Shown one piece after another: positions 12,023 through 54,250 of a stretch of 64,000 bases of DNA. A program made the translations under genes and the position numbers. The DNA is taken from the IMG/VR virus record IMGVR_UViG_3300022752_000054, positions 1-64,000 of that record; one strand, written 5' to 3'. The stretch is from a virus. Positions within the stretch are counted from its first letter, which is position 1; each line of letters starts with the position of its first letter. The notes beneath the pieces are model-generated. The model saw only the letters and a program-made list of their open reading frames with translations. It was not told the DNA's origin and searched no databases.

Positions 12023-13567
12023 TCAAGCGATGTTGTAACGATTCATCAAATAAGCTTCTATCGCAGCCCGACCAGCTTCAGGTAAGGTTCCGCTGAATAT
12101 GAGAAGCTCCGCCTGTGATGATTCAAAGTGCCAAACATCTTGCCACAATGAACCAATTCGAAAGTGCGATGGATTAGAAGTACCAGCACCCACTAGTGTT
12201 GTGGGCCCTGACACTGAAGAACCGTTAATCCATGCTTCACAATTAGTGCCGGAAGATCCTGTACGCCAATTGACTGTGAATACTAGGGGCACATTGTCTG
12301 TAGGTCGTGTAAATGATAGGGTTGGTGTGACCCCAGATCTCACAATACCTATAGGCGGATTACCGTCCGGACCCCATGCCGCTAGACCGTAAGTATTCGT
12401 GAGCTGGTTGGGGCTCATATCCCACACGCCCTTGCTGGCGCCTGTCGTTCGGGACGCAAAGACATGGAACACAGTGTAACCGACATCCGACGCATCATCA
12501 AGATTCCAGATAGTTCCTGTCATGTACTGCGGGGAGCCTGAGAATCTCCATGTGTCATAGTTTCCAAATGTACCACCTGTATTTGTTTCTATGGTTGGAT
12601 AATAGGTATTTCCATTACTTTGCCCAAGATGCCTACCATTGCCGCTCTTGTCGTTTATGACGGTTACATAAGAGCCATCGAGCGTAACATTGTCAGATCG
12701 ATACCAAGATAAAAGATAATTCGACCAAGTGATTGGTGCTTCTGGCGTAGGTTGGCTGACAGATTTCACCTTAAATCCACTACCACTTCCCTTGCTTATA
12801 AAGCTTCCTACAATTTTCACGGGTGTTATCGGTATTCCATACTTGTTAGCAAGGTATCTCTCGATCCTTCCGCGGGTGACTTCATTGTGGGTGGTATTGA
12901 AAACAAGCACTTCAGCCACAGCTCCTGTCCAGCGTTCTGTCGCCGCTGTAGCAGGACGACCAATCGTGATCTCTGCAACAGGATTGCTAATGTTAGGAAC
13001 ACCAGACTGTCCCATATTCGACCCGGCGGCACTGACTCCATCAAGATATGACACAGCCTCAGTTACGTTAGCACCTGTAACATATGGATATGAGAATATA
13101 AAAGACTGATTCGCAGAAACTGAACGTGCTAGTGTACCAATTCCACCGTTCTCAAATATCATGCCGCCGTAGTATCCTGCACCCATTCTGGCGCCTGTAT
13201 ATGCATTAGATCCCCATGTGAACATGTCAGCCGTTGATGATGCACCACTCCAATAACCTACAACATATGTAGTGCACGCAGAAGATCCTACAGGAAGTCC
13301 CGTGGGGTTGGATCGATAGTTGGAATCGTTACCGTCATATGTGACAGAAGGCATGCCATTTAGCAATGCGTCGGATGAATTATAGATAGGAGCACTTTCA
13401 TAATTGTCCAAGTCATTATTATTCGGAGAATCGTCGGGCCAATTAGTCACCGTTGCCCCGTTGCTCAAAGCCAATGAGTCAGCCTTGTACCAAGCGACAA
13501 GATCGGGCATGCCGGTAGGATCTAAAGGAGAAACTGACAATCCTTGATTTTTCAATTTAAGCGCCAT
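12023..13567 (-). CDS. two-domain LamG/concanavalin-like adhesin (514 aa)
   Basis: Probable tail-associated carbohydrate- or receptor-binding protein. Two copies of one domain are visible: residues ~22-255 open with VAWYKADSLALSNGATVTNW and close with VLVFNTTHNEVTRGRIERYL; residues ~280-514 open with LSWYRSDNVTLDGSYVTVIN and close with LLIFSGTLPEAGRAAIEAYL. Both have the WxDxSxNxxxL turn near the start and an ANKYGI or MNRYNI end. The same fold recurs at 23266. No signal peptide. It converges on the SH3-like array. Confidence 0.65.
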   Translation of the reverse strand: MALKLKNQGLSVSPLDPTGMPDLVAWYKADSLALSNGATVTNWPDDSPNNNDLDNYESAPIYNSSDALLNGMPSVTYDGNDSNYRSNPTGLPVGSSACTTYVVGYWSGASSTADMFTWGSNAYTGARMGAGYYGGMIFENGGIGTLARSVSANQSFIFSYPYVTGANVTEAVSYLDGVSAAGSNMGQSGVPNISNPVAEITIGRPATAATERWTGAVAEVLVFNTTHNEVTRGRIERYLANKYGIPITPVKIVGSFISKGSGSGFKVKSVSQPTPEAPITWSNYLLSWYRSDNVTLDGSYVTVINDKSGNGRHLGQSNGNTYYPTIETNTGGTFGNYDTWRFSGSPQYMTGTIWNLDDASDVGYTVFHVFASRTTGASKGVWDMSPNQLTNTYGLAAWGPDGNPPIGIVRSGVTPTLSFTRPTDNVPLVFTVNWRTGSSGTNCEAWINGSSVSGPTTLVGAGTSNPSHFRIGSLWQDVWHFESSQAELLIFSGTLPEAGRAAIEAYLMNRYNIA

Positions 13568-13627: not shown

Positions 13628-14626
13628 ATGAGCGGAATTTTACCTCTAATCGGCCTGATAGGCTCCACACTTCTTTCAGTTTGGGCTGCATTCAAATACC
13701 TGTTGACATCATCTTATCGGCTTGAGGATGGTGTGTCGAAGCTTCTCCTGTCGCGTATACGAAAAGAAAAGCCCCTATCCTGGATGTTCGGCGGAGAACA
13801 TGTAACACCACCACGATTCCCTGAACTGTGGGAAGGCTTCCTGTTATTGGATAAAATTCCCCTGTATTTCCACCGCAACGAGAGGTTGATGACCGCCGGC
13901 TGGAAATCAAAGGAATCGGTGTCAACCCTGTCGTTCTTCAGGTGGAATAGATCACAGGTGGATAGGTTGCTTGTCCATGTGAACACAGGTGAATCGATAC
14001 AGGTTTCTGCTTTGACTCCCCACGGAACCGATAGGCTTGGTGAACTTGAGCCCGGGGGTGAAGGTGAGTTGTACCTGAATCCTGGAAGTTATGAAGACGT
14101 TGAGGAGGATGTGAAGAGAGTTTTGGCAGGCGAATTGAACAAGACCAGCGCTCTTCTCTATGGATCTCCGGGAAATGGAAAGACGCGATTCGTTCGTTAC
14201 CTATCAAAGAAGTATTCGTTGCCAATCAATGTTGTCTACCTTCTTCCGGACTACAACAACCTTGACATCAGTCTCATGTTCTCCAATATTCCTCAACGAT
14301 CAATCGTTCTTCTCGAGGACTTCGACAACCTGTTCGACGGTCGGAAGTGCACCATTCCAAACGACCAGATAAAGTTCACTTTTGATTCGATCATCAACGC
14401 CCTCGATGGGGTACACAACGATTATCGCCAGGTGGCGTTCATCATGACCGTGAATGATATTGGAAAGGTGGATGACAGCATCAAGGAGAGGCCATCAAGA
14501 TTTAAATTTGTCAAGGAATTTGGTCCGCCTAATATCGATGTGAGGGAGAGAATCTTGGGTGATAGGAACCTTGCTATCATTGCTGAAGGATTATCATTAG
14601 ATAAGGTGGTTCATTTTAAAAATTAA
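13628..14626 (+). CDS. membrane-anchored BCS1-like AAA ATPase (332 aa)
   Basis: I start at the ATG at 13628 (MSGILPLIGLIG); the frame is open upstream but overlaps the neighbouring gene's 5' end. Residues 3-24 are a single transmembrane helix. An ~150-residue middle region precedes the AAA core: Walker A YGSPGNGKT near 177, SNIPQRSIVLLEDFD near 220-233 (Walker B with LEDFD), NALDGVH, and a sensor-1 Asn in MTVND, all in the order of the mitochondrial BCS1/bacterial BCS1-like family. The family translocates folded proteins across membranes or remodels complexes; the phage role is unknown. Followed closely by a cupin gene. Confidence 0.8.
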   Translation: MSGILPLIGLIGSTLLSVWAAFKYLLTSSYRLEDGVSKLLLSRIRKEKPLSWMFGGEHVTPPRFPELWEGFLLLDKIPLYFHRNERLMTAGWKSKESVSTLSFFRWNRSQVDRLLVHVNTGESIQVSALTPHGTDRLGELEPGGEGELYLNPGSYEDVEEDVKRVLAGELNKTSALLYGSPGNGKTRFVRYLSKKYSLPINVVYLLPDYNNLDISLMFSNIPQRSIVLLEDFDNLFDGRKCTIPNDQIKFTFDSIINALDGVHNDYRQVAFIMTVNDIGKVDDSIKERPSRFKFVKEFGPPNIDVRERILGDRNLAIIAEGLSLDKVVHFKN

Positions 14627-15018: not shown

Positions 15019-16566
15019 TCACTGGTCTTCGAACCACGAGATTGAAAAAGTTGCTTCAGAACTTAGTTTATTCGTCTTTGCTGCGATCGTCAATGTCTCA
15101 CCACTCGTGAGGAAGAAGTTTTCTGCTTGTATAGTCAAGATGGTAGCCTCGTTCGAACCAACTATGAAGCTTTTGACGAGTTGAGTATTAGGTCCGATGC
15201 TTATCGAAGTCGCAGACAGATCAGCTGCTGCTATCGATTTGTTTGTATCAACGTGTTGAAAGTTGACAGGGCCTCCGAGCACGGCATTCTTGTATACATA
15301 GACTTCCGTCAAAATTGTACTCGCGGCGTTGCCCGTATCAGTACCGACCGATATGTTGAAAAGATCTATCTCGCCGTAGTTACATTGACCCAGGAAGTTT
15401 CTGTTGGCACGTATGGTCAACACAGGTGTGAGCGTGGTGTCAAGATCAAGTGCTGCGCCGACGCGAGCAGAACCCGTAGCAAATGCTGGTCCTATGTTAC
15501 GAATCACCAATCCTTCAGCGAAAACTCCTGCTGAAGCACCTTTGATGGTGACAGGTGTAGCCAACGATCCGCTGTTGTAGACACCCCACTTGGCGGTCAT
15601 CTGGGGATTTCTGAGGACTGTGGTGGTCCTACTGTTGGCGTTCTTTATCATGTGGCACCCAGCCAACAGGCCCGTTTCGGAGTTCTCCACCGCAAAGAAT
15701 GCATTGCCGAACCCGAGATACTGGAAGCCGACGGAGTAAACATTTCCATACCTCGGGTTCAAGGCAAATCTCGATTCACCGGTTCCATCCATTTTATCAA
15801 TGTTCCACTGGGACTGTGAGATGAATGTCTCGATTGGTAGTTCTCCCGTTTGAACCACCGCTGTTGTGGCTATCTGAGTTGCTCCGTTGAACAGAGAAAA
15901 AGTTCCTCCTACGGGCCCTGGGCGTCTCGATACGAAGAAGACGGTTCCATCGATGGATTCTGCATCCCAGCCTGAACCGACCTGTGAGTAATCTGCCTGT
16001 GATAATTGGTAAGAAGTCTGGTTGTTTGAACTTCCACCATTTATCGCGACAGTTCTTGAGGCCCCTCCGAGGGTGACCGTGATGGTGGCAGCTCCGGCTG
16101 GTGGGGTGGTGATGGAGAAGCTTCTGATCTCCCGCTTGGATCTCTCGCGGTGCAGTATGCCGAACTCGCTGTTCCGTTGAGCGAAGAAGTAACCGGTCTC
16201 TTCGTTACCGATTCCTGCCAGCTGAAGCGTGTCGGGTGCGCCTGGATCGAAGATCGCCGTCATCCTACACATGGAGCCCTGTCCAGGGCGATACTTGAGA
16301 CTTCGAGACAGCCTCACCTCGGCGGATCCTGATGTAGATGTTCCTGAAGAGCTCGTCATGATTCCCAGCGAAGCGGTCACGAATGCACCAGCCCCAGCTG
16401 ACGATGTGGTCCATTGTACTGGATTTACGGTATAGATGAACGCAGCCTGAGCCGTGGGGTGCGCTTCGGACACAAGGGGAGAACCGAAAGGTCCGACGGC
16501 ATTCGCATTGATGCTTCCCTCGCTGGCAAATAAAGATTTCTTACCAATCGTCGTAAATCCTGACAT
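15019..16566 (-). CDS. phage virion structural protein (515 aa)
   Basis: Resembles a widespread family of large-phage structural proteins: YRPGQGSMCRMTAIFDPG, IGNEETGYFFA, EFGILHRERSKREIRSF, an internal Ig-like stretch (TITVTLGGASRTVAING), QWNIDKMDGTGES, and GNVYSVGFQYLGFGNAFF. The N-terminal and C-terminal parts are Ala/Thr/Ser-rich beta structure. RBS GGGGAGA before the ATG. Exact position in the virion (head decoration or tail) unknown. Divergently transcribed from the structural gene at 16620. Confidence 0.6.
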   Translation of the reverse strand: MSGFTTIGKKSLFASEGSINANAVGPFGSPLVSEAHPTAQAAFIYTVNPVQWTTSSAGAGAFVTASLGIMTSSSGTSTSGSAEVRLSRSLKYRPGQGSMCRMTAIFDPGAPDTLQLAGIGNEETGYFFAQRNSEFGILHRERSKREIRSFSITTPPAGAATITVTLGGASRTVAINGGSSNNQTSYQLSQADYSQVGSGWDAESIDGTVFFVSRRPGPVGGTFSLFNGATQIATTAVVQTGELPIETFISQSQWNIDKMDGTGESRFALNPRYGNVYSVGFQYLGFGNAFFAVENSETGLLAGCHMIKNANSRTTTVLRNPQMTAKWGVYNSGSLATPVTIKGASAGVFAEGLVIRNIGPAFATGSARVGAALDLDTTLTPVLTIRANRNFLGQCNYGEIDLFNISVGTDTGNAASTILTEVYVYKNAVLGGPVNFQHVDTNKSIAAADLSATSISIGPNTQLVKSFIVGSNEATILTIQAENFFLTSGETLTIAAKTNKLSSEATFSISWFEDQ

Positions 16567-18353: not shown

Positions 18354-18866
18354 TCATGATGGTCCGCCGCCGAAGCCACCACCACCGAAGCCTCCACCAC
18401 CGCCGCTAAGCACTCCGACAGCGATCTTGAAGGTCACGCCGGAGACAGTTGCGATAAAGTAATAATAAGTTGCCGGTCCCATTACGGCTGAATAAGTGCT
18501 GCCGTATGAAGCAGCGAAGTTTATGTCGCCGAGGGTGAGTGGCACGTTTCCGCTGGCTATTTGAGAGACAGCGTTGTAAGAAGCATCTGAAGTTGATATC
18601 GTGTATGCTTGAGATGCATATGTTGATGTCAACGAATTGAATGCTGCAGATGAGTTCTGGAATACAACGTCGCCACCTTCGTTGACCGTTGTTGTTTCGG
18701 TTCCGCCTCCAAACATTGCCGGTCTGGTCCAAGATACCGCCTCGCCACCACCACCACCACCGCCGCCAAGCGGAGCAGTTCCAGCGGCCATTGAGCCACC
18801 AGATCCGGTGAACTTGATTTGTTGCCCAGCTGTGTGATTTTCTGTTTTCTTGTATTTAATGGCCAT
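18354..18866 (-). CDS. Gly-rich virion-type protein with shared N-terminal anchor (170 aa)
   Basis: ATG at 18866 has AGGAGAT upstream. The N-terminus has IKFTGSGGSM followed by a poly-Gly stretch, matching IKFSGTGGSL plus poly-Gly in the LamG protein at 23266-24201, so the two share an anchor and linker. The middle is Ser/Thr/Ala-rich beta structure; the tail is GGGGGFGGGGFGGG. Probably a tail fibre or decoration protein; the Gly-rich end could be an adhesive or tip segment. Inference from composition and neighbours. Confidence 0.55.
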   Translation of the reverse strand: MAIKYKKTENHTAGQQIKFTGSGGSMAAGTAPLGGGGGGGGEAVSWTRPAMFGGGTETTTVNEGGDVVFQNSSAAFNSLTSTYASQAYTISTSDASYNAVSQIASGNVPLTLGDINFAASYGSTYSAVMGPATYYYFIATVSGVTFKIAVGVLSGGGGGFGGGGFGGGPS

Positions 18867-18952
18867 AAAGATCTCCTGATCGAACGCGATGTCGAGCGTC
18901 CGACGCAAATATAATTATGTAATCTTTAGTAGAATCGTTGTAATATAGAATC

Positions 18953-21900
18953 ATGTTCCGAAAATTCGAAATTGTTTTTTCGATGGTTCTGTTCGTTGTT
19001 GCAGGAGTCTACTCTACCGCTCGAGCCCAATTCACGCCGCCGCTTGATTCCAAAGTGAAGATTCCAAATGTGCTGTTGTTAATCGACACGAGCGGATCAA
19101 TGACATGGTCCCTTGACGGTGGCAACGCGGACTGCAAGGACACTTTAAATCCCAAGAAAGCCAGGTACACGATTCTAGGCGAGGTCCTTACGGGAACCGT
19201 GGACGATTTGGATTGTTGGTCTGGGATCGATCCCTTGAGCCTTGGAACATCTGCTGTTCCACTCATGTCTAATTCAGAGAGACATCAACCAGGTGGACAG
19301 AATTGTGTTCCTACATTAAACCTTGATGTTGATATCATTAATTCTCTCAAGGCACAACCCTTTGGTTGGCCTTACGAGGCGGCCGATAAAGACAACTCAT
19401 CCGCCATCACTTACTGCGGTGCTAAGACATCGTCGAGGTTCACACGTTGTTTCAACGCTTCGACGTGGGGTACCCGTGACGTGTGCAACAAGGCTAACAT
19501 CGGTTGGAACCAGGCTGCCGATGGTTTGCTTGACACCTATGGATCCAAGATTCGTTTTGGAATGATGTCATTTGATTCACTCGTGTGGTCAGGATACTCC
19601 ACGGCTGATTTCTATTCCAATAAAACGATGGCATGGTGGACTCCTGAGACCGGTGGAACTGTAACATACACGTATGATCCCCTGTGCCGAAACAACACGA
19701 TGGGTCACTATTGCTTCCTATATTATTTCCCATACATGTACTATGACGTGGCTGAATGGTCGTATTGGCATGGAACCGGTACCACGTTGAGTTCTACATG
19801 GCTCACAGGAACTAGATCGGCCACGTTGTTTCCTTCCACAGCTATCGTAGGTGGGATGTACTCGTTGGCTTCATCAGATATTGGTGCCAGGAATTCCCGA
19901 GCTTTGCCCCACAAGGGAAGACTGATTGGATTCGGACATCCGGATGCAGTTGCTACTGATACGGTTGCACACAACGAAATGGTGCAGGATTCTATCCTTG
20001 GTTTGTCGATGAACCTAGAACATAATACTCCTCTTGCAGCTCTAATGAGGGATGCCTATGAGTTCATTTCAAACGATGTTTCTACCAACGGTGTGACCAT
20101 TCCCCATCCAACGACTTCAGCACCTACGCTCACCACAATTGGACCTCAAACTGATGTTTATTTTTCCAATGCTGCCCGTTGTAGAGACACACTAGTGATT
20201 CTTGTGACAGATGGTGAGCCTACAGGAGATTTGAACGACAGGATGTCGTACTGGGCAGGAAAGCTCGCTGTCGAACAGGATGTCAAGACGATCGTGTTCG
20301 GCATTGGATTGGAGACAGCAAGGTGGAAACCTAATTCTACAATCCTCTCCAAGAAGTGTAGCGATCTAGTTCCTGCTGATTACAGTTCTGTTTCGACAGG
20401 AACTTCGATCTGTACTCGTGATGGATTGAACTGGAAGTACGCGGACAATCCACTGTTCACTTCCGGACTTACATCCACCGATAGATCTGCCATTCGTGCC
20501 TGTTGCAACCTTCTTGAGACCGCGATCCTTGGAGATCCAACAAATTCCTACGGACAGGTTCCGTACTTCCCCAACGATCAGGCTCAACTCAAGCAAACCC
20601 TTGATACGATCCTCAAATCAATCGCAGGAACAACAGTAAGCAGAACTGTTCCGGTCTTCGCCAATATCTCTTCAACCTTTCAATCAGGTAACGCCCCAGC
20701 TTCATACTATGAACTACGATCAGCTCTCATTCCTGCCTCAAAACCCACCAGTGGAACCCTCGAGCGGGTGAGGTATGCCTGCGATAATTCATCCGAACCT
20801 GTTCGACAAAACATCGAAGAGATCAAGGGGGATCAATTCCACAAGAACCTCGATGCTACATCTGTCAGGCCTCGAAAGTTCATTACTGTTGTTCCGTTGA
20901 AGGTTGGAAATGTTGTAAAACCAATGTGGACCATCAGGCCTTCCACCGTTGTTGAGGATCAACTAATGGGATCTCCTGCAACTTCAGGAAACTTTGTCAG
21001 GTTGGATGGAACATCACCCGATCTTACAGCACCATATCAATCTGATTTTGGTGTTACGATCGATAATTTATCTTCCACTATCACAGCCTTGGGCGGAACA
21101 TATCCGAAAGGATCAGAACTGTTGAACCTTTCGTCGACCGATGCCTCCACATGTCTGAGCCAGGTTGGTACCAACACATTAGAAGAATGTGCTAAAAGAG
21201 TGCTGCAGTGGTACGGAGGAAGTTCTCAGGTATACCCTCTGTCAAATGGCAACATGTCACCTTCACGAGATCCAAACGTTTGTGGTGGTTGGGACAAGTG
21301 CGGTCCGCTAGGAGCAATCTTCAGGTCCAATCCCGTGATTGTTGAACCGCCCACACCCAATGCAGCTGAGCAATCATTCTCATCCAATAAACCATCGGGC
21401 GCTCAATCATTCTACCAACAACAACGAACTCGTCCAACGATGCTGTATTCCCAAACGATCGATGGAATCCTACACGCATTTGTCATGTCCAAGAATGCTG
21501 CCCTTCCTGATCCATACGGAAACGTATCCACGGTGGATTCTCTGGAGAACAACGAGCTATGGAGCTTCATTCCTCCCGCGATCCTTCCACAGATCTGGCC
21601 TAACTTCAAGACAGAGGCTCGATTGTTGGATGGACCTCTCACAGTTGGAAACGTTGTGTTCAGCAGGAACATGACTCAGACTTCCGAGGGTGCAACAGAT
21701 CTCTCAGGGTTCAGAACTGTGTTGGTTGGTTCATCCGGTTACGGAGACTCAGGATTCTACTATGCGATGGATGTCACCAATCCGATGGAACCACGGTTCC
21801 TGTGGCAGCTCGTCAACTCATCGGGTGGAAACGCGTTGTTCGGAAAGGTCTTACCGGGAGCCGCAATCACAACGCTAAAGATCAAGGATCCAAAGGATGG

Positions 21901-23197
21901 AATCATCAAACAGGTCGGTGTTGCAATCCTTCCAGGAGGAAGAGATCCAGGTACACCCACGGTCACAATGTCTCGTAGGATCTTTTCTACATCACGTTCA
22001 CCAATCTTCTCATGGAACGGGCAGTATTATCCGCGTGCCCTGATCAGAAGCTGGGGCGCAAAGGTACCTTCTCGATCGTTGACCATCGTTGAGCTAGAGA
22101 CGGGTAGAATCATCGCCCGCATGGCAGGCGAATGGGGTGATAACCCAGGAAAGACATCGACAGTAACATGCTCAGGCGGTCCCAGCGGAGCTGATGCAAC
22201 AACTTGTGGTTTATCACCGAGTGTCATCGTGAATCCGACTCGTGTTAGCTTTGATTCGCCCCTAACAGGAACACCAGTGGCATTTCCATCCGGTGTTGCA
22301 CAAACATCCACACGGGTATACGTTGGTGATGCAGACGGTGTTGTTTGGCGTGTCAACATGATCGACCCAGAACCTCTAAAGTGGACTGCAGAGATTGCAT
22401 GGGATGCCTACAATCACTCTTCTGTCCCTAATAATTCTCTAAAACTATCCTATGTTGTCAATGGAATCAATTCAGGAAACCCTTTAAACCTATCCACAAC
22501 ATCACTGTCAGCTGCTACAATGGGCCAGCCTATCGAACAACAACCAATTATTTCCGTAGATTCTCGAGGAGTTCTAACTGTGACGCTGACAACAGGCGAT
22601 GGAGAATCTTTCAACACCGTTTCTCCAGGAACTCTCAACTTCCTTACAACATTTGTTGATGGTTTGAACACAAGTGGTACGGCATTCGAGCCAATCATCA
22701 ATGCCACACAAGGTATTTCAATGGTGTTTACCGACGGTGGAAGGGTGACAGGACCCCCTACGCTCTTCGATGGTAAACTATTCTTCAGTTACTTCTCGCC
22801 TCAAACGGCGACAGTTTGCACCTCAGGTAAAAGTGGTTGGTGCGCCGTTGATTTCCTGAATGGTAACAACTCAACTCCAATGGCTGTCATGGATGTGGAT
22901 CCGTTTCTTCCAGGTAACGATCGTTGCACCACATTCCAGAACGGTGAGGTCGTCTTCGGTCTTGCAATCAATGCTGTTCCATCCTGCGTTCAAACGGAGG
23001 ACAACTTCAACGATCAGTGGTTGGCAGGTCAATACAACAGTTATTCATCTTCGAAAGGTATGAACTACCAACTCGTGATGCAGACAAGCCAAGGTGGAAC
23101 ATCTGAGAATGGTTCAACAATCAACTCCACACGAATCGCTCTTCCTCCGCCCCGAGCGAAGTCTCGACTACAATCATGGGTCTCCGTGATGCAGTGA
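18953..23197 (+). CDS. PilY1/PilC-like protein with vWA domain (1414 aa)
   Basis: Large exported protein. Residues 1-25 are a signal peptide ending ARA-Q. A von Willebrand A domain starts at VLLLIDTSGSM, with MIDAS residues D45, S47 and S49, and contains the conserved VILVTDGEP near 415. From about residue 800 the PilY1-type beta-propeller appears: SQTIDGILHAF near 831, ENNELWSFIPPAIL, and VYVGDADGVVWRVN near 1122, the modified-propeller DxDG signature. Many Cys in the N-terminal half suggest disulfides. PilY1 caps type IV pili and binds surfaces. In a phage context it could mimic the pilus tip, bind pili as a receptor, or be exported to alter host adhesion. It sits between adhesin genes on the other strand. 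Confidence 0.8.
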   Translation: MFRKFEIVFSMVLFVVAGVYSTARAQFTPPLDSKVKIPNVLLLIDTSGSMTWSLDGGNADCKDTLNPKKARYTILGEVLTGTVDDLDCWSGIDPLSLGTSAVPLMSNSERHQPGGQNCVPTLNLDVDIINSLKAQPFGWPYEAADKDNSSAITYCGAKTSSRFTRCFNASTWGTRDVCNKANIGWNQAADGLLDTYGSKIRFGMMSFDSLVWSGYSTADFYSNKTMAWWTPETGGTVTYTYDPLCRNNTMGHYCFLYYFPYMYYDVAEWSYWHGTGTTLSSTWLTGTRSATLFPSTAIVGGMYSLASSDIGARNSRALPHKGRLIGFGHPDAVATDTVAHNEMVQDSILGLSMNLEHNTPLAALMRDAYEFISNDVSTNGVTIPHPTTSAPTLTTIGPQTDVYFSNAARCRDTLVILVTDGEPTGDLNDRMSYWAGKLAVEQDVKTIVFGIGLETARWKPNSTILSKKCSDLVPADYSSVSTGTSICTRDGLNWKYADNPLFTSGLTSTDRSAIRACCNLLETAILGDPTNSYGQVPYFPNDQAQLKQTLDTILKSIAGTTVSRTVPVFANISSTFQSGNAPASYYELRSALIPASKPTSGTLERVRYACDNSSEPVRQNIEEIKGDQFHKNLDATSVRPRKFITVVPLKVGNVVKPMWTIRPSTVVEDQLMGSPATSGNFVRLDGTSPDLTAPYQSDFGVTIDNLSSTITALGGTYPKGSELLNLSSTDASTCLSQVGTNTLEECAKRVLQWYGGSSQVYPLSNGNMSPSRDPNVCGGWDKCGPLGAIFRSNPVIVEPPTPNAAEQSFSSNKPSGAQSFYQQQRTRPTMLYSQTIDGILHAFVMSKNAALPDPYGNVSTVDSLENNELWSFIPPAILPQIWPNFKTEARLLDGPLTVGNVVFSRNMTQTSEGATDLSGFRTVLVGSSGYGDSGFYYAMDVTNPMEPRFLWQLVNSSGGNALFGKVLPGAAITTLKIKDPKDGIIKQVGVAILPGGRDPGTPTVTMSRRIFSTSRSPIFSWNGQYYPRALIRSWGAKVPSRSLTIVELETGRIIARMAGEWGDNPGKTSTVTCSGGPSGADATTCGLSPSVIVNPTRVSFDSPLTGTPVAFPSGVAQTSTRVYVGDADGVVWRVNMIDPEPLKWTAEIAWDAYNHSSVPNNSLKLSYVVNGINSGNPLNLSTTSLSAATMGQPIEQQPIISVDSRGVLTVTLTTGDGESFNTVSPGTLNFLTTFVDGLNTSGTAFEPIINATQGISMVFTDGGRVTGPPTLFDGKLFFSYFSPQTATVCTSGKSGWCAVDFLNGNNSTPMAVMDVDPFLPGNDRCTTFQNGEVVFGLAINAVPSCVQTEDNFNDQWLAGQYNSYSSSKGMNYQLVMQTSQGGTSENGSTINSTRIALPPPRAKSRLQSWVSVMQ

Positions 23198-23202
23198 GCC
23201 AA

Positions 23203-23236
23203 ATAAAAACGACCGGGAGTTTTAGTTCCCGGTCGA
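23203..23236 (-). terminator. rho-independent terminator (minus strand)
   Basis: Stem GACCGGGA/TCCCGGTC; reading minus, it is followed by CGTTTTTATTT. Serves the convergent LamG gene at 23266. In the plus direction the stem is followed by A residues, so it is weaker for the PilY1-like gene. Confidence 0.7.
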
Positions 23237-23265
23237 AAAACTAGGTTAAGTTTTTAGTGTGTAAA

Positions 23266-24201
23266 TCAAACAGCGATTCCATGCTTGGCAGAGAGGTATG
23301 CCAATACTTGATTTCTCTCTGATGCTGTATGTTGTGTCTTGTAGAGAATTATTTCAGCTATTCTACCGCTGAAACCGTGAGCAATTCTTCCGTCGTAACC
23401 CATAAAGCCTCTTTCACCAGCTAGACCGCCGAGCACGATTTCAGTATTACCTGCGCTTGGCAAATTCATGGTAGTTGTGGATGTCGAATTTGAAATCACT
23501 CCGGAAGAAGAACCATTTATCAAGTACTCTGAATTCTGTAATTGTTCTCCTGATCCGATTATGAATGAAGTAATTTTTGCGTCTGTATTTGCTTGGTACA
23601 GATCGCTACCACCCCCTGTGAAGTTTGTATCTGAGACCCAGTTTGCAGTTCCGCTACTATTCTGAGGTGACCCTGCCGCCCAACCGTTGACGCCATTTGT
23701 ATCAGCACCACCCCATGTAATTAATCTATTGTATGTTTGACCGATAGATATAACTGGTTGCATAGCAAAGGGTATTGCCAAATCTGGTTTGAAAACTGCA
23801 TACAATGATATTGGATCAGAGCCTGCTGGAATGTTTCCTGCTGTAGGATCTCCTGCGAAATACATTGAGAATCCCACAGGGTAATATGGGTCTCCTCCGC
23901 GAACGTGATCAAATTTTACTGATTTTTTACCGTTAAAATAAGTTCCTGTTGTATCTAATCTTGGTTTCCAGTCGCCGCCATAATTGTATGGACTTAGATT
24001 GTTTCCATTTCCGCTCTTATCAGTCCAGCTAGTGATGTCTGAATCATCTGCTTGCATGATATCTTCTGCATCATACCAGGCTGACATTAGTGTCATCGGA
24101 GGCGCTCCGCCTCCGCCTCCGCCTGATGAAGCAATGCTTAAGCTTCCTCCCGTTCCGCTAAATTTGATGGATCCTCCGGATCCTTTTGTCACTATGGCCA
24201 T
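23266..24201 (-). CDS. LamG-type adhesin with Gly-rich anchor (311 aa)
   Basis: ATG at 24201, AGGAGAT upstream. Residues ~8-35 are the IKFSGTGGSL plus poly-Gly anchor shared with 18354-18866. The rest is a LamG/concanavalin-like domain: MSAWYDAEDIMQADDSDITSW, DKSGNGNNL, VKFDHVRGG, and the closing AEIILYKTQHTASERNQVLAYL. This matches each of the two domains at 12023-13567. Likely host-surface binding. Confidence 0.65.
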   Translation of the reverse strand: MAIVTKGSGGSIKFSGTGGSLSIASSGGGGGGAPPMTLMSAWYDAEDIMQADDSDITSWTDKSGNGNNLSPYNYGGDWKPRLDTTGTYFNGKKSVKFDHVRGGDPYYPVGFSMYFAGDPTAGNIPAGSDPISLYAVFKPDLAIPFAMQPVISIGQTYNRLITWGGADTNGVNGWAAGSPQNSSGTANWVSDTNFTGGGSDLYQANTDAKITSFIIGSGEQLQNSEYLINGSSSGVISNSTSTTTMNLPSAGNTEIVLGGLAGERGFMGYDGRIAHGFSGRIAEIILYKTQHTASERNQVLAYLSAKHGIAV

Positions 24202-24364
24202 AAAATCTCCTTCTGAACAGTATAAACTCTGTTCAGTCAATCATAAATATCGTAATTGATTTATATTATAGTTGATTTTTGCATATTACCTGGTTGATCG
24301 AGATAATTCTTCGCAAAATAAGCCTGTGAAAACCTCATCTCAATTATGTTAGTATTATCAAACC

Positions 24365-24973
24365 ATGATCAGGTTCCTTGGAAAGCTGCCTCGCAAGTGT
24401 GTGGTTGCCTTCAGCGGTGGTGTTGATTCCGTGGCAGTGACTGATTTTCTTCTCAACGGAAAGCGTGATGTTCACCTGGCATTTTTTCACCATGGAACTG
24501 TGACATCCGATGAGGCAGAGAAGTTTGCAAAGGAATTCGCCAGGGAGAGGAACCTCAACTTATCCATCGGGCGGATCAGCAATGAAAAGTCACCGGGTGA
24601 ATCCATGGAGGAATACTGGCGGAACGAGAGGTATCGATTCCTTTCCATGTACAATTTCCCGGTGATTACTGCACATCACCTTGGAGATGCCGTGGAGACA
24701 TGGATCTTCAATTCTCTGCACGGAAATCCCCGAATCTTGCCTTATCAGAGGAACAACATCATCAGGCCTTTCCTTATCACCCCTAAGTCTGAGTTGATTG
24801 ATTGGGCTAAAAGGAAAGGATTGAAGTGGATGGAGGATGAATCCAACAACGATCTGAAGTACATGAGGAACCTGATCAGGCACAAGATCGTCCCTGAGGC
24901 AATGGTGATTAATCCTGGTCTTGACAAGGTTGTAAAGAAGATGTATATTAAGGAAGAGATGAAAGAGGGGTAA
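24365..24973 (+). CDS. tilS: tRNA(Ile)-lysidine synthetase (202 aa)
   Basis: Ligates lysine to C34 of tRNA-Ile(CAU), switching it from reading AUG to AUA and from Met to Ile charging. Seen: PP-loop AFSGGVDS at residues 15-22, HHGTVTSDEAE, the TilS-typical TAHHLGDAVETWIFNSLHG, RPFLITPKSELIDWA, and WMEDESNNDLKYMRNLIR. The protein is only the N-terminal catalytic domain and lacks the C-terminal tRNA-binding domains of long TilS enzymes. The split tRNA(CAU) gene at 17132 is an obvious substrate. Two small genes and a SpoU methyltransferase follow. Confidence 0.9.
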   Translation: MIRFLGKLPRKCVVAFSGGVDSVAVTDFLLNGKRDVHLAFFHHGTVTSDEAEKFAKEFARERNLNLSIGRISNEKSPGESMEEYWRNERYRFLSMYNFPVITAHHLGDAVETWIFNSLHGNPRILPYQRNNIIRPFLITPKSELIDWAKRKGLKWMEDESNNDLKYMRNLIRHKIVPEAMVINPGLDKVVKKMYIKEEMKEG

Positions 24974-24976
24974 ACT

Positions 24977-25228
24977 ATGGAAATGTTTAGAAAATCCACG
25001 TGGATTGAGTTGCGAGTTCCGCCTCCTGCAGCTGGGATAGTTTTCATCCACGTTGCAAGGCCTGATCGACCATTAATGATAACGGATATCCTAGAGGATG
25101 AGATACAACGCGTAGACGTGGCAGGCGTCACGGCACCTTGGGGGTCCATCGAAGATTGGCGAGATGAGGTTCGCCATAGAAATATAGAGATTGTTTATGA
25201 CCCAAAGCATTACATTCAAAAAAGGTGA
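24977..25228 (+). CDS. hypothetical protein (83 aa)
   Basis: Starts four bases after tilS. Beta-rich first half (WIELRVPPPAAGIVFIHVARP) and a charged second half. No family recognised. Overlaps the next gene by 32 bp, so it is in the same transcript. Confidence 0.5.
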   Translation: MEMFRKSTWIELRVPPPAAGIVFIHVARPDRPLMITDILEDEIQRVDVAGVTAPWGSIEDWRDEVRHRNIEIVYDPKHYIQKR

Positions 25229-25433
25229 TTTGGTTCTCTACGATAAGTTTGGATCTTATCATGAGTCAGTATCCCCCTCTGTCTTCATTGACGATTTTGC
25301 TGTAGGAATTATTCTTGAAATCGTAGAGGAAAAAAGTGGGGGTGTTGACAACGCTTTCGCAGAGATCATGAAGGAAGATGGGTCAAAAGGTTTCTTTTCT
25401 TTATCTTACCTAAATTCGTTCGAACAGCCATAA
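25197..25433 (+). CDS. SH3-like small barrel protein outside the array (78 aa)
   Basis: FKKGDLVLYDKFG, VGIILEIVEEKSGG, AEIMKEDGSKGFF, YLNSFEQ: clear relative of the 2.5-12 kb array, alone here between tilS and the methyltransferase gene. ATG at 25197 preferred to the TTG at 25191. Confidence 0.6.
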   Translation: MTQSITFKKGDLVLYDKFGSYHESVSPSVFIDDFAVGIILEIVEEKSGGVDNAFAEIMKEDGSKGFFSLSYLNSFEQP

Positions 25434-25445
25434 AAAGGAAATTTG

Positions 25446-26021
25446 ATGAGTGACTTGAAAAATCCGTCGTGGCCGCAGGGACAGTTCGATCATAGGAATG
25501 TCATCGATTATTACAAATATTGGGAGCATGATGCGATCCTAGCCGACCAAGACAAGAACAGGTGCCGTTTGAAAATCGTGGCTGAGAATTTTGGAAATGA
25601 CTTCAACATCTCAACCGTCGTGAGATCTTCCAACGCTTTCTTGTGTAATGAAGTGATCATCGTTGGTCGAAGACGCTGGGATCGCCGCGGAGCTTGCGGA
25701 ACGCATAATTACGAGCACGTAAACTATGAAGAGAATATTGGGAGCGTCATTTCCAAGCATCCGAATCATAGAGTGGTCGTGCTAGATAATGTTCCAGGAG
25801 CCTCTTCGATTTATGACTATAAATGGCATGAAGATACATTGCTTGTTTTAGGACAAGAATCAATTGGGGTATCTCCTGAATCGATGGTGGCGGCCCACGA
25901 TGTGATCTACATCCCGCAGTGGGGTTCTGTTAGATCGTTGAACGTTGGATCAGCCGCCACAGTAGCCATGGCGTTTTATCGAGGGCAGTGGGGTAAAGAT
26001 CAGCCGACACCGTCCCAATAA
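25446..26021 (+). CDS. SpoU/TrmH-family RNA 2'-O-methyltransferase (191 aa)
   Basis: SPOUT-class methyltransferase acting on tRNA or rRNA ribose. Motif 1 AENFGNDFNISTVVRSSNAF, motif 2 LVLGQESIGVSPE, motif 3 IPQWGSVRSLNVGSAATVAMAFY are all intact, including the NVGSA knot loop. The N-terminal ~40 residues precede the catalytic fold. RBS AAAGGAAA; ATG at 25446. With tilS and the tRNA genes it suggests active tRNA modification during infection. Substrate position not determinable here. Converges with the structural gene at 26000. Confidence 0.85.
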   Translation: MSDLKNPSWPQGQFDHRNVIDYYKYWEHDAILADQDKNRCRLKIVAENFGNDFNISTVVRSSNAFLCNEVIIVGRRRWDRRGACGTHNYEHVNYEENIGSVISKHPNHRVVVLDNVPGASSIYDYKWHEDTLLVLGQESIGVSPESMVAAHDVIYIPQWGSVRSLNVGSAATVAMAFYRGQWGKDQPTPSQ

Positions 26022-28402: not shown

Positions 28403-28456
28403 GCCATAATTATTCTTGTGGGACATCTACAGATGTCTCTGAGGAGTAATTATGGC
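28403..28456 (+). promoter_or_regulatory. leader hairpin covering RBS and start of the fibre gene
   Basis: GCCATAATTATTC at 28403-28415 can pair with GAGTAATTATGGC at 28444-28456 (12 pairs and one G-U). That would bury the ATG at 28452, while a nested hairpin GACATC-TACA-GATGTC (28422-28437) forms the inner arm. This could repress translation until opened. The second fibre gene keeps only the inner hairpin. Confidence 0.45.
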
Positions 28457-28504
28457 TATAAATTTTAATGGTGTGAGAATAAAACCCGCATCTGGTGGTG
28501 CAGG
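28426..28504 (+). repeat. 79-bp direct repeat, copy 1 (leader plus fibre N-terminus)
   Basis: Identical to 29687-29765. Spans the hairpin end, RBS and the first codons of both fibre genes, so the two genes share translation signals and virion anchor. Confidence 0.85.
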
Positions 28505-29579
28505 TGGCGGAGTTTCTTGGCCTGGTGATGGAACTAAGTTGCTATCCGGTGACGGTTCACAGGTTATTGTTGGTGATGGTTTGACTTTGTCTGCCGGAAC
28601 ATTATCATCTAGTGGATCAGTTGGACCTCAAGGTCCTCAAGGTCCTCAAGGTCCTCAAGGTCCTCAAGGTCCTCAAGGTGCTACAGGTGCTACAGGTGCT
28701 ACAGGTGCTACAGGTGCTACAGGTGCTACAGGTGCTACAGGTGCTACAGGTGCTACAGGTGCTACAGGGTCTTCGGGATCTACATATATAGCAACGGTAG
28801 GAGACTCAACAGTTTCTTTGCTTCTTCACATGAATGGAGCAAACAACAGCACAACATTTACCGACAATTCTTATACACCAAAAGCTGCCACGGTTAGTGG
28901 CAATGCAAAGATTAGTACAACCGATAGCAAATTTGGCGGGTCTAGCGGATATTTTGATGGAAATGGCGACTATTTCTATTATTCGTATAATAACGATTTC
29001 AACTTAAGTACAGGAGATTTTACGATAGAAGGTTGGGTAAACCCCAGCTCTCTTGCATCTCAAATGTGTCCAATTGCAAAACATCAAACTACCATTTCTC
29101 AAGATTGGCAATTTTATATTATAAACTCTACGACAATTGGCTTTGCTGCATCTGGTCTTGTGACGAGAACGGTTCCAACGATAACAACGGGAACCTGGTA
29201 TCACTTTGCCGTAGTAAAACTCTCAGGTAACACATCCATCTATTGGAATGGTATTAGACAAGGAGCAACTTTTGCCAATGTACCAACTAATTCCGTAGCT
29301 GCAGTTGTAATTGGCGCTGACAGATTGAATGCTATTCAATATCCATTTCACGGATATATCGATGAAATTAGAGTCAGCAAAGGTATCGCAAGATATTCTA
29401 CTGATTTCACACCTTCTGCAACAGCTTTCGCAAATCCAGATGGCTCGGCTGAACTGCCTGCCGCCCCTGCAGTAGGAAATGTCGTTTACTCCGACACGGG
29501 AATCTACGTTTGCTCTAGTGCTTCTCCTGTTGTTTGGAAAAAATTTGACGGAGCACCAACACAAACTATAACAATCTAG
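28452..29579 (+). CDS. collagen-like tail fibre with LamG tip (375 aa)
   Basis: Modules in order: conserved N-terminal anchor ([20 protein letters not shown], continuing to about residue 50), a collagen-like stalk of six GPQ and ten GAT triplets (about 57-107), then a LamG/concanavalin domain ([57 protein letters not shown]). Glycine triplets form trimeric stalks in phage fibres. Likely receptor binding. The perfect 9-bp DNA repeats of the stalk invite length change by slippage. GAGGAG RBS. Confidence 0.8.
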
Positions 29580-29686: not shown

Positions 29687-29765
29687 TCTACAGATGTCTC
29701 TGAGGAGTAATTATGGCTATAAATTTTAATGGTGTGAGAATAAAACCCGCATCTGGTGGTGCAGG
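29687..29765 (+). repeat. 79-bp direct repeat, copy 2
   Basis: Second copy of the leader and anchor sequence found at 28426-28504; divergence begins just after codon 20 of the fibre gene. Confidence 0.85.
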
Positions 29766-30714
29766 GGGCGGTGTTTCCTGGCCCGGGGATGGAACAAAGC
29801 TTCTAGCTGGTGACGGTTCGCAGGTCGTTGTTGGCGATGGTCTGGATTTGTCTGCGGGTACGCTAACTGCAGGTGGTTGGCAGACAGTTTTAGATATAGA
29901 CTTTACAACTCAAGCTGCGCAGACTTTCAGCACTGACGGCACGTACACGATCGCCGGAAAAACTTTTACTAAAGGAAATTCTTCAGCTGATTCAACCGCG
30001 GCCGCGTTGGTTCCTTCTGAAGGATTGAAGTTCATGCCTAATGCTGGTTCTGACTACAACGGATCTACACGTGGCATGCCATACCTGTGGACTCCGTTGA
30101 ACGGAATACTGCCAGCAGATCTTGCGTACAGCTGGAGTAGCAGGATTAGATTGTATGTTTCGTTGGGATCTAATAATATCAGCGCAAATTTCGACAATTT
30201 CGTTCTTGGACTTGACACAAATTCAACGACTTGGGGGATCATCATAAAATTGGGTTATGGCACTGGTGGTACAAATCCAACTACTGCTATGTTTTGGGAC
30301 ATAAATGGTACGGGTGGTAGCGTTGCTGGTAACGGAACTACATTCTTGAATGGTTCAAACTCTTACTCACTGGGTGCAGGTGGGATAAGAACTTTTTGTT
30401 TTGAATTTGGGTCGGTGAACAATTCGGGACCTGCCTTTACAAATGTAATGGAGTATAGAAACGGAAGCATGAATCCTGGTGATGCATTTCCTTCCATAAA
30501 AACATTCTCTCCTGGTCTATCTTGCAGTCTTAGAAATTATGCACAATTGCAAGATTGGTCTAGCACAGCACAAGGGTTTAATTCACATGGAAGCCCTTAC
30601 ATGAGTGGTGGACCTTGGGAATCTTTAGGAATTTTACTTGGCATGCAGAGAGCAGGAGGAACAGCCGGCTTGCATGGTAGATATCAAAGAGTCAGACTAG
30701 ACGTGCTAGTATAA
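29713..30714 (+). CDS. fibre-like protein with the same anchor (333 aa)
   Basis: Residues 1-50 match the preceding fibre ([20 protein letters not shown] against [20 protein letters not shown]), after which the two are unrelated. The body (WQTVLDIDFTTQAAQTFSTD; YSWSSRIRLYVSLG; VRLDVLV at the end) is a beta-sandwich-like single domain without a stalk. So one anchor carries two different tips: either alternative receptor-binding proteins or two fibres in one virion. Confidence 0.7.
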   Translation: MAINFNGVRIKPASGGAGGGVSWPGDGTKLLAGDGSQVVVGDGLDLSAGTLTAGGWQTVLDIDFTTQAAQTFSTDGTYTIAGKTFTKGNSSADSTAAALVPSEGLKFMPNAGSDYNGSTRGMPYLWTPLNGILPADLAYSWSSRIRLYVSLGSNNISANFDNFVLGLDTNSTTWGIIIKLGYGTGGTNPTTAMFWDINGTGGSVAGNGTTFLNGSNSYSLGAGGIRTFCFEFGSVNNSGPAFTNVMEYRNGSMNPGDAFPSIKTFSPGLSCSLRNYAQLQDWSSTAQGFNSHGSPYMSGGPWESLGILLGMQRAGGTAGLHGRYQRVRLDVLV

Positions 30715-30830: not shown

Positions 30831-32765
30831 TCAAGCGTCACGCCACAAATTATTTGAAGCATACACAAGAATCTCTTCTGCGCTTTCGGCGGTGTATCCA
30901 TGATCCTTGATGAGTGTTGCCACCATCTCATTGTACTTTTCCTTCTGCTCCTCGTCACGAGTTTTGCTCTTGGTCACGACTCTAGCAAGTGATTTGACCG
31001 ATGAGATGAGGAATGATTCAATGGCCTCACGGAGTGGTTCATAAGAACGGAATCCGACCTTTTCGCCTCGACGCATTTTGGCGAACATGTAGGCGGCAAC
31101 GTCAGATCGGAATCCGTCGCGTGCGGAGCCGCTGATACCAATTTGCTCCTCAATTGAAGCCATGAATTGCTCGTCTGGCTTTCTCTCTTCTTTTGTGACG
31201 CGATCCTTGAGCTTAACGCGTGTGGTATAAGCCTCTGCATTGTCAAGGTAAGTGTCGAAGAGGGATTGAGCCTGTTCCTCGTAGGCGGAAATGAATGCCT
31301 TTGCGATCTCGTTCTCGAGGATCTTAAGGTATTCTTCACGAACTGTCTTCTGGAGAATTTCAAGGCACTTTGTCTTGAATGTCTCATCGTTGATCTGCTC
31401 TTTCACCATCTTGGTTAATGACTCAATGACAGAAACCGGCGTGATCATTCCTTTGTCGGATGCTGTGAGGGCATTATCCAACGCTTTGGTGATGAAGCGC
31501 GTGGAGATTCCATCCATACCCTCGTGTTTTGCTTCCTCACGAAGGTCTTTAATGTCGACCTTACGAACGCGACCTTTCTCTAAGACGTCCTCGCCGTTAT
31601 AGATCTTCATTTTCGTCAACAAATCGCATTTAGCCGAGGGTTTCAGGCGGCTCATGACTGAGAACATTGAAGCAACCTTGAGGGTGTGCGGTGCGATATG
31701 CGCTTTGAAGTCCGACTTACCGAGCATCTTTTCGTAGATCTTCTGTTCCTGATCAACTTCAAGGCAGTAAGGAACTGCGATCTTGACGATGCGGTCCATG
31801 ATAGCCTCATTGGTGTGCTCCGACTGGAATCGGTTCCACTCAGCCTCGTTGCAGTGGGCGAGAATGACGCCGTCGAAGTGAAGCATGTCCGATTTACCAG
31901 GTGATGGAACCCTCTTCTCCTGTGTGGCGGTGATGATGGTGTGGAGGAACTCGATCTCATTCTTGAAGACCTCGACCAGCTCCACGATGCCACGGTTGCC
32001 CACGTTGAATGCACCTGTGAGTGAGAGTGCTCGTGGATCATCCTCTGCGTATTTGTCAAGCTTAGAGATATCCACCGAGCCGATGAGGACAGAAACGTCC
32101 TGACTGTTGGCATCCATTGGAGGAACAGCAGCTACGCCTCTCCGTCCCCTCTGAGAGAACGTGGTCTCCTCGACCTCAAAATCCTCATACTTACCGCCAT
32201 AATCGTTGAGGAGCTTGTGACGTGCAACGGGAGAGATATCTCCATCAATCTTCACGTTGAGTGCCTTCTCAAATTCCGAACGAAGAGAACGTGGGACGAG
32301 TTGTAGGGGCTCACCACGATGAGGATCTCCCTTGAGGTGATAGTACTTCTTGCCTTCGAGCGCACGTTTAATGTGCTCTGTTAATGCTGATTTACCAGCT
32401 CCGACTGGTCCCATTAAGAGTAGAACCTGGCGAGATTCCTCACCCTTGTGTGCTGCTGAAGACAGGAACGACATGATCTTGTCAATGACCGTCTCCATTC
32501 CGAAGAACTCACCCTCAAAGTACTTGTGGACTTTAACGGCGTCGCCGTCAAACACCTTGAACTTGCGTGAGTCTGAGTCAGGCATCACGTAGGAACCGTG
32601 CTCCTCGATGGCCTCATAGAGCCTGCGATGCGCCGATTTTACTATTGATGGTTCCTTTTCGACGAGGTCGACGTAATCCATAAGATTACCAGAGAACTTT
32701 TTTGTTTTGGATGACTCTTCTCGAGCCGTTTGAATTTGTTTGAGTAGTTGCTTCTTGACGCTCAT
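30831..32765 (-). CDS. prkA: PrkA-family serine kinase/AAA protein (644 aa)
   Basis: Full-length relative of YeaG/PrkA. AAA domain with Walker A GPVGAGKS at 119-126, then HLKGDPHRGEPLQLVP, TGAFNVGNRGIVELVEVFKN, and ITATQEKRVPSPGKSDMLHFDGVILAHCNEAEW, all hallmarks of the PrkA N-terminal domain. The C-terminal kinase-like region follows from about 400. In bacteria PrkA acts with YeaH and SpoVR under starvation and nitrogen stress. It is the last gene of the three-gene minus-strand operon, 33 bp after spoVR. Finding the whole set in a phage-like region suggests takeover of this stress circuit. Confidence 0.9.
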   Translation of the reverse strand: MSVKKQLLKQIQTAREESSKTKKFSGNLMDYVDLVEKEPSIVKSAHRRLYEAIEEHGSYVMPDSDSRKFKVFDGDAVKVHKYFEGEFFGMETVIDKIMSFLSSAAHKGEESRQVLLLMGPVGAGKSALTEHIKRALEGKKYYHLKGDPHRGEPLQLVPRSLRSEFEKALNVKIDGDISPVARHKLLNDYGGKYEDFEVEETTFSQRGRRGVAAVPPMDANSQDVSVLIGSVDISKLDKYAEDDPRALSLTGAFNVGNRGIVELVEVFKNEIEFLHTIITATQEKRVPSPGKSDMLHFDGVILAHCNEAEWNRFQSEHTNEAIMDRIVKIAVPYCLEVDQEQKIYEKMLGKSDFKAHIAPHTLKVASMFSVMSRLKPSAKCDLLTKMKIYNGEDVLEKGRVRKVDIKDLREEAKHEGMDGISTRFITKALDNALTASDKGMITPVSVIESLTKMVKEQINDETFKTKCLEILQKTVREEYLKILENEIAKAFISAYEEQAQSLFDTYLDNAEAYTTRVKLKDRVTKEERKPDEQFMASIEEQIGISGSARDGFRSDVAAYMFAKMRRGEKVGFRSYEPLREAIESFLISSVKSLARVVTKSKTRDEEQKEKYNEMVATLIKDHGYTAESAEEILVYASNNLWRDA

Positions 32766-32798
32766 GTTGTTATGTATACCTCTCCCTGCTCCAGTGTA

Positions 32799-34109
32799 TC
32801 AAATCTCCCAAGTTTCATCTTCAATAATTGTGAAGAATTTCACGTCGCTACCCCACAGAGTCTTGACGTGTTCCACGACTTTATTGGCATGGCTTAATTC
32901 TAGATCTCGACCATCATGTTCATGTTTGATGATCAATGTACCATCTCTCTTTACGTCATCCACAAAGACAGCTGGAATGGATCCACCTGCCACTTGGTTG
33001 ACGAGATCTTTCTTCACCTCTTCCCACCCTAAGTCATCTGAAACTTCATCGACTGTAATTCCCTCGTGGCGCTTCGATGAATATGTGAAGAGATTGAGAT
33101 CCACGCAGTCCTCTTCCGTGAGATATTGGCGGAGGAAAGAAGCGTCATGGCATGTCTCTCTTGCGATGAAGCACTCTTCGATGCCATGCCTCTCCTTAAT
33201 CTTCTGGAATAGATGGAAGCCTAAGTGATAAGGATTGATCGCTCCCACGTGTGGTCTGACCACTTGGTTGTGCATTTTGATAAAAGGTAGATGCATACCA
33301 TCAGGTAGGTCCAACTCATGACACATGGTGTAGTGCCAGTAGGAAGCCCATCCTTCGTTCATGACCTTCGTTTGTATCTGTGGCCAGAAGTACTGGCCTT
33401 CGTCACGGCAAACGTCAATGATGTCGCGTTTCCAATCAGGCATCTTACCGTGTTCCGAGATGAAACCTAATAGATCATAATCAGGTTCTAGCGGAATTCT
33501 ATTGACATCGAAATTCTTATATTCATTTTTCTTGTCGTTGTTCATCAGTTCGACGTATTCGGCTCTGAGCTCTGCATGAGTCCTGCGGGTTTGTCCGTAC
33601 TTCGTCGTCTGGAACTGTATTGCGTGACAGGAGTCTATCACCTCTTCCACGTTTTCCACACCGATGTTGGGATTCTCAATGTAAGATTGGATTCTCTTCT
33701 TCGCCGCTCTGAACCGAGGCACAACTGTCTCAGGTCGTGTGGCCTTGAACATCCTGTTGTTCTTAAAGAAATCGCTATGTCCGACGCAATGCGCCATGAT
33801 GAGGATCTGCAGGTATAGTGGATTCTCACGCATGAGGTAAGCGATCGATGGATCACTGTTGATGATTAATTCATACGGCAAACCTTCCATACCTAGGTTA
33901 TAACGGTGGAATGTTTGTTCGAACGTTTTACCATAGGACCAATGATCGAAGTGTGTAGGAAGACCATGATAGGCCATGGCACCGATCATTGAATAATAAT
34001 CGAGAGTTTCATAGGCAATCTCAAACCAATCGAGATTGTGACCCTTGGCCAACTTGCAGATCTTATCATCCCATTCTGCCAATGTATCTAATGTGTAATC
34101 CATTTTCAT
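32799..34109 (-). CDS. spoVR: SpoVR/YcgB family protein (436 aa)
   Basis: Recognised from NLDWFEIAYETLDYYSMIGAMA, GLPTHFDHWSYGKTFEQT, GMEGLPYELIINSDPSIAYLM, MAHCVGHSDFFKNN, NEGWASYWHYTM and YHLGFHLFQKI, the conserved blocks of the family. It is somewhat shorter than the E. coli YcgB type (about 510 residues). Biochemical activity is unknown; His- and Glu-rich motifs suggest a metal-binding enzyme-like fold. ATGA overlap with yeaH shows translational coupling in the order yeaH-spoVR-prkA. Confidence 0.92.
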   Translation of the reverse strand: MKMDYTLDTLAEWDDKICKLAKGHNLDWFEIAYETLDYYSMIGAMAYHGLPTHFDHWSYGKTFEQTFHRYNLGMEGLPYELIINSDPSIAYLMRENPLYLQILIMAHCVGHSDFFKNNRMFKATRPETVVPRFRAAKKRIQSYIENPNIGVENVEEVIDSCHAIQFQTTKYGQTRRTHAELRAEYVELMNNDKKNEYKNFDVNRIPLEPDYDLLGFISEHGKMPDWKRDIIDVCRDEGQYFWPQIQTKVMNEGWASYWHYTMCHELDLPDGMHLPFIKMHNQVVRPHVGAINPYHLGFHLFQKIKERHGIEECFIARETCHDASFLRQYLTEEDCVDLNLFTYSSKRHEGITVDEVSDDLGWEEVKKDLVNQVAGGSIPAVFVDDVKRDGTLIIKHEHDGRDLELSHANKVVEHVKTLWGSDVKFFTIIEDETWEI

Positions 34110-54053: not shown

Positions 54054-54250
54054 GTCTCCCCGCTCGAGTGGACTGTGAAGGTGGGTGCCCATTCCCAGAA
54101 GGTGTCCCCGTGTGGGGAGAGGACGTGGACCATCGTGTCTGATCCATTGGGTGATTCCACCTTGATGACCGGGTAGACCGCCGATCGATCTCGTTCGTTC
54201 CAGGTCAGTACGCCGTGGCGGAAGGTGACCATGTCTCCCACGCGGATCAT
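54050..54250 (-). CDS. SH3-like small barrel protein (66 aa)
   Basis: ATG at 54250 overlaps the end of the vWA gene (ATGA). MIRVGDMVTFRHGVLTWNE, VYPVIKVESPNGSDTMVHVL, SPHGDTFWEWA. First of the three barrels in this operon. Confidence 0.6.
   Translation of the reverse strand: MIRVGDMVTFRHGVLTWNERDRSAVYPVIKVESPNGSDTMVHVLSPHGDTFWEWAPTFTVHSSGET

Follow-up and report, generated by a model that had tools for sequence, protein, structure and literature searches.

What is a relative of PilY1, the tip protein of type IV pili that pairs with PilX by β-strand complementation, doing in the DNA of a virus? The gene that raises this question lies on the plus strand at positions 18953 to 23197 of the window, the 64,000-nucleotide stretch analyzed here, which itself belongs to a virus record of 73,430 bases. 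It starts with ATG, runs without an internal stop, and encodes 1,414 amino acids.

Full-length, intact relatives are present in four viral contigs of IMG/VR (94, 89, 70, and 69% identity), and a fifth contig holds the C-terminal part only (last 532 residues, 93% identity). The second-closest relative lies at 11 kb in G002, a 278,435-base contig with the terminase, portal, sheath, tape measure, and replication genes of a jumbo myovirus. The flanks are colinear among the window, L002, L003, and L005, and ω is approximately 0.05 to 0.10 (Nei-Gojobori, pairs with computable dS), which indicates strong purifying selection, the values being rough because the more distant pairs are near saturation. 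Four further full-length copies with such ω values make this more than a chance finding. Moreover, a motif search revealed a second lineage, represented by a 1,206-residue homolog with 30% identity in G006, a 361,490-base contig. This is also a jumbo myovirus, with its own terminase (best PHROG 675, versus PHROG 2 in G002), portal, sheath, and baseplate, and it shares only some genes with G002. Both contigs are large phages, which is where the original prediction had suggested looking for homologs. The proteins of the two phage groups score approximately 410 to 450 bits against each other over most of their length and approximately 27 to 57 bits against three bacterial PilY1 proteins, and on these scores they form a phage-side family relative to the three PilY1 compared. 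No relatives were found in 50,697 phage records or in 72,556 plasmids, where the sole match is a true PilY1 at noise level, and two GTDB seed scans, which distant homologs can escape, returned no close cellular relative. Two generic motifs revealed no further PilY1-like genes in IMG/VR; their five matches are unrelated phage morphogenesis-type proteins. The intact copies, the colinear flanks, the virion genes of G002, and ω exclude both a chimera with host DNA and unselected cargo, and a placement among chromosomal sequences only, raised beforehand as a danger, is excluded by the six viral contigs of one clade and the second jumbo phage. The open reading frame is a real, intact phage gene and not host contamination, and well-kept PilY1-related genes occur in giant bacterial viruses of two distinct kinds.

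A rule-based scan and an alignment placed a Sec signal peptide of the n/h/c type at residues 1 to 25 (positions 18953 to 19027, plus strand), with predicted cleavage between ARA and QF. Every full-length homolog has a signal peptide, its hydrophobic region being kept despite sequence divergence. An N-terminal vWA domain follows at approximately residues 38 to 555 (19064 to 20617, plus strand), with a complete MIDAS, D45xS47xS49, that reads DTSGS at residues 45 to 49 and in which T359 and D420 are assigned from motifs as the probable remaining residues. All five residues are identical in 6/6 full-length homologs, down to 30% identity. All 24 cysteines are kept across the five-member clade, and 13 of them also occur in the 30%-identical homolog; together with the signal peptide, they indicate an oxidizing compartment outside the cytoplasm. 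The signal peptide and the MIDAS vWA domain of the original prediction are borne out. AlphaFold models of both halves, built with only 5 to 6 sequences as input, reached pLDDT values of 27 to 30.

The similarity to PilY1 lies in residues 786 to 1414 (21308 to 23194, plus strand), a β-propeller with the C terminus. The window protein alone gave no Pfam match, two clade members match PF05567 in colinear pieces below the cutoff (best E value, 0.0019), and the G006 homolog matches it above the cutoff (33.3 versus 28.1 bits). The PilY1 structure 3HX6 was found by the family profile at 7e-7 and by the G006 homolog alone at 6e-10. Comparison by hhalign with PilY1 of Legionella, Cupriavidus, and Aeromonas gave a probability of 99.1% over columns 788 to 1293, against 0.1 to 0.7% for one reversed and eight column-shuffled controls; the N-terminal profile comparison gave 9.9%, which is not significant. 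Matches of the family profile in a Legionella plasmid and a Cupriavidus megaplasmid fall on PilY1 genes, and the Aeromonas PilY1 was not reached. Identity to the compared PilY1 is approximately 25%, and the similarity is low and significant in the propeller only. Judged from these comparisons, the propeller of the original prediction is real but divergent.

The phage proteins differ from the compared bacterial PilY1 at the site of the calcium loop. In 3/3 bacterial PilY1, an acidic loop (DSDGNFIAD, DRNGDGYVE, or DSDGDGKVD) directly precedes the motif YVGDxxGxxW. The corresponding calcium-loop position of the window protein (22274 to 22348, plus strand) reads PVAFPSGVAQTSTRVYVGDADGVVW, without an acidic loop, and alignment and motif scan showed that the loop is absent at that position from 6/6 full-length phage proteins. 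Substitution of the loop abolishes PilY1 function in P. aeruginosa, K. kingae, and N. gonorrhoeae (PMC8833165). Calcium motifs are, however, also absent from some bacterial PilY1 (PMC13190605), and the missing loop therefore does not prove inactivity.

Otherwise, the protein shares with the vWA-bearing class of PilY1/PilC (PF05567 T4P_PilY1; 3HX6 of P. aeruginosa) the signal peptide, the C-terminal propeller with LDG, DVTxP, and YVGDxxGxxW motifs, the richness in cysteines, and the N-terminal vWA domain with MIDAS, which is found in about a third of the characterized PilY1/PilC members (PMC13190605). It differs in being phage encoded, in lacking the calcium loop before YVGDxxGxxW, and in lacking a pilV/W/X/fimU operon. 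A regular-expression scan for co-encoded minor pilins found no prepilin signature in the window or in the 278-kb and 361-kb records; in contrast, the Legionella PilY1 gene sits in pilV-pilW-pilX-pilY1. A minor-pilin operon (pilV/W/X/fimU) is usual for PilY1/PilC genes but does not occur in Neisseria, so it is not decisive for membership in the family, and neither is the calcium loop, since it is usual and not universal.

A conserved, exported PilY1 relative without the usual calcium loop suggests interference with the host's pili, which the virus would change or block. The idea that a phage-encoded protein could mimic the pilus-tip protein is supported by the homology and by the phage contigs. 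Our preferred explanation, offered tentatively, is an exported PilY1 mimic that would engage the minor-pilin priming complex of the host and alter or block its pili. After synthesis in the infected cell, the phage version would leave the cytoplasm through the host Sec pathway and fold with disulfides in the periplasm; its propeller would bind the host minor-pilin priming complex, and the protein would replace host PilY1 at the base or tip of the pilus. The outcome may be either a stalled pilus, in which case pili, motility, and pilus-dependent superinfection would be lost, or a pilus re-tipped with a phage-specified adhesin. Both outcomes are suggested by the missing calcium loop combined with the protein's own MIDAS adhesive domain, and the missing loop makes blocking somewhat likelier than re-tipping. 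We infer the localization, the minor-pilin partner, and the blocking or re-tipping effect, and it is homology that points to pili as the proposed target.

The alternative that survives best is an exported surface adhesin without a link to pili, in which the vWA domain with its MIDAS would stick infected cells to neighbors or surfaces and so aid the spread of progeny, either free or surface bound as in CglB. The preservation of the MIDAS residues in all homologs and the failure to find co-encoded minor pilins are consistent with it, as is the match of the vWA start (residues 27 to 65) to the NCBIfam model of CglB (E value, 6.6e-6; approximately 5e-6 to 7e-6). This match is, however, far below the cutoff, reaching approximately 25 bits of the 200 required for the equivalog. 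CglB, a myxobacterial gliding adhesin, shares with the phage protein the start of the vWA domain with its MIDAS motif, but its model describes a lipoprotein of approximately 400 residues without a propeller. Moreover, strong selection keeps in the phage protein a PilY1 propeller that is otherwise tied to minor pilins, and no surface anchor (lipobox, C-terminal transmembrane segment, or sorting motif) is visible. We consider an adhesin of this kind rather unlikely.

Re-tipping without blocking is a special case of the preferred explanation, in which the phage protein would functionally replace PilY1, leaving the pili working with changed adhesion, comparable to the remodeling of flagella by temperate phages (PMC13418256). 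The whole protein is conserved, MIDAS included, beyond the needs of a simple blocker, and the bacterial PilY1 that lack calcium motifs (PMC13190605) also fit. Since host minor pilins would have to accept a propeller only approximately 25% identical to the compared PilY1, we hold this variant to be unlikely.

An improbable reading is that of a virion tail or fiber adhesin that binds a host receptor. Fiber and virion structural genes do surround the gene in the window and in its nearest relatives: a Laminin_G_3/collagen fiber with family matches lies at 28452 to 29579, and virion structural PHROG matches lie at 12023 to 13567, 15019 to 16566, and 23266 to 24240. The LamG and Gly-rich neighbors originally described are indeed there, but the Gly-rich one (18354 to 18908) has no family match. 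Membership in an adhesin cluster, by contrast, was not supported: in the window, the nearest fiber genes run on the strand opposite to the PilY1-like gene, and two other members, L006 and G006, have no fiber neighbors. The order in L006 is endolysin (named from its similarity to the G002 endolysin), tRNA-Met, PilY1-like gene, PP-loop ATPase, and PrkA; in G006 the gene stands in a replication block, between a DnaE-like gene and a BCS1-like AAA gene on one side and UvsX and an SSB-like protein on the other. A virion adhesin or tail fiber is assembled in the cytoplasm with the tail genes and has no signal peptide, whereas here a signal peptide is present and the context is not kept. The signal peptide and the 24 fully conserved cysteines disfavor a virion protein, and the PilY1-like protein has no PHROG virion match. 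A host gene brought in by a chimeric assembly, or functionless cargo acquired by chance, would fit a cellular family such as PilY1, but the same gene with the same flanks in several contigs, the ω values, the second phage lineage, and the two GTDB seed scans refute it and leave it with virtually no probability.

Inhibitors of PilB or PilZ, namely, Tip, Aqs1, and Zip, are a known means by which phages disable type IV pili (PMC11656802). The shared element is a phage product that alters host pili, which for the PilY1-like protein is only proposed; the difference is between small peptides that target PilB or PilZ and a 1,414-residue exported homolog of the tip protein. In the open literature, whose coverage leaves out most subscription papers, we found no description of a phage-encoded PilY1. 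It is possible, if somewhat doubtful, that jumbo phages re-tip or lock host type IV pili with a PilY1 of their own, a takeover of the tip protein and not an inhibition of the motor. If so, phage control of these pili, known so far at the cytoplasmic motor, would extend to the pilus tip, and the phage proteins would provide a natural test of the roles played by the calcium loop and by the MIDAS. They would also offer a way into the question of how large phages control host adhesion, motility, and superinfection.

No usable T4-type late promoter motif was found upstream of the PilY1-like gene, and a PADLOC search for a defense function gave no match for its protein. Downstream on the same strand, in the window (24365 to 24973, plus strand) and in L006, lies a PP-loop (TilS-like) ATPase. 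A tRNA-Met gene with a terminator-like hairpin directly precedes the PilY1-like gene in L004 (9865 to 9941) and L006 (8640 to 8716).

In the window, a membrane-anchored BCS1-like AAA ATPase (13628 to 14626, plus strand) is encoded 4.3 kb upstream of the PilY1-like gene; in the 361-kb phage it stands directly before that gene, with a gap of 6 bp. It is kept in several jumbo-phage contigs (window, L061, L064, and L065; 42 to 97% identity). A two-gene module was considered and rejected: three other viral contigs carry the ATPase without a detectable PilY1-like gene, and in L006 it was not found near that gene. The association of the two is weak.

Several other features of the window deserve mention. 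Tandem fiber genes in the window (28452 to 29579 and 29713 to 30714) and in G002 (21849 to 25634; L017) have similar N-terminal anchors and differing C-terminal domains (collagen, LamG, and others), an arrangement suggestive of adhesin cassettes that can be exchanged. PrkA, SpoVR, and DUF444 are consecutive at 30831 to 35278, and the trio also occurs in the otherwise distant 361-kb phage, at 65 to 81% identity (G002 copy). A predicted exported lipoprotein of a metalloenzyme/phosphodiesterase superfamily, with a lipobox-like IANC, is encoded at 3686 to 4726. Finally, a DUF2201 metallopeptidase-vWA protein (54247 to 55554) and an AAA_5 (MoxR-like) ATPase (61001 to 62119) resemble the MoxR-vWA chaperone pair of jumbo phages (PMC7824862).
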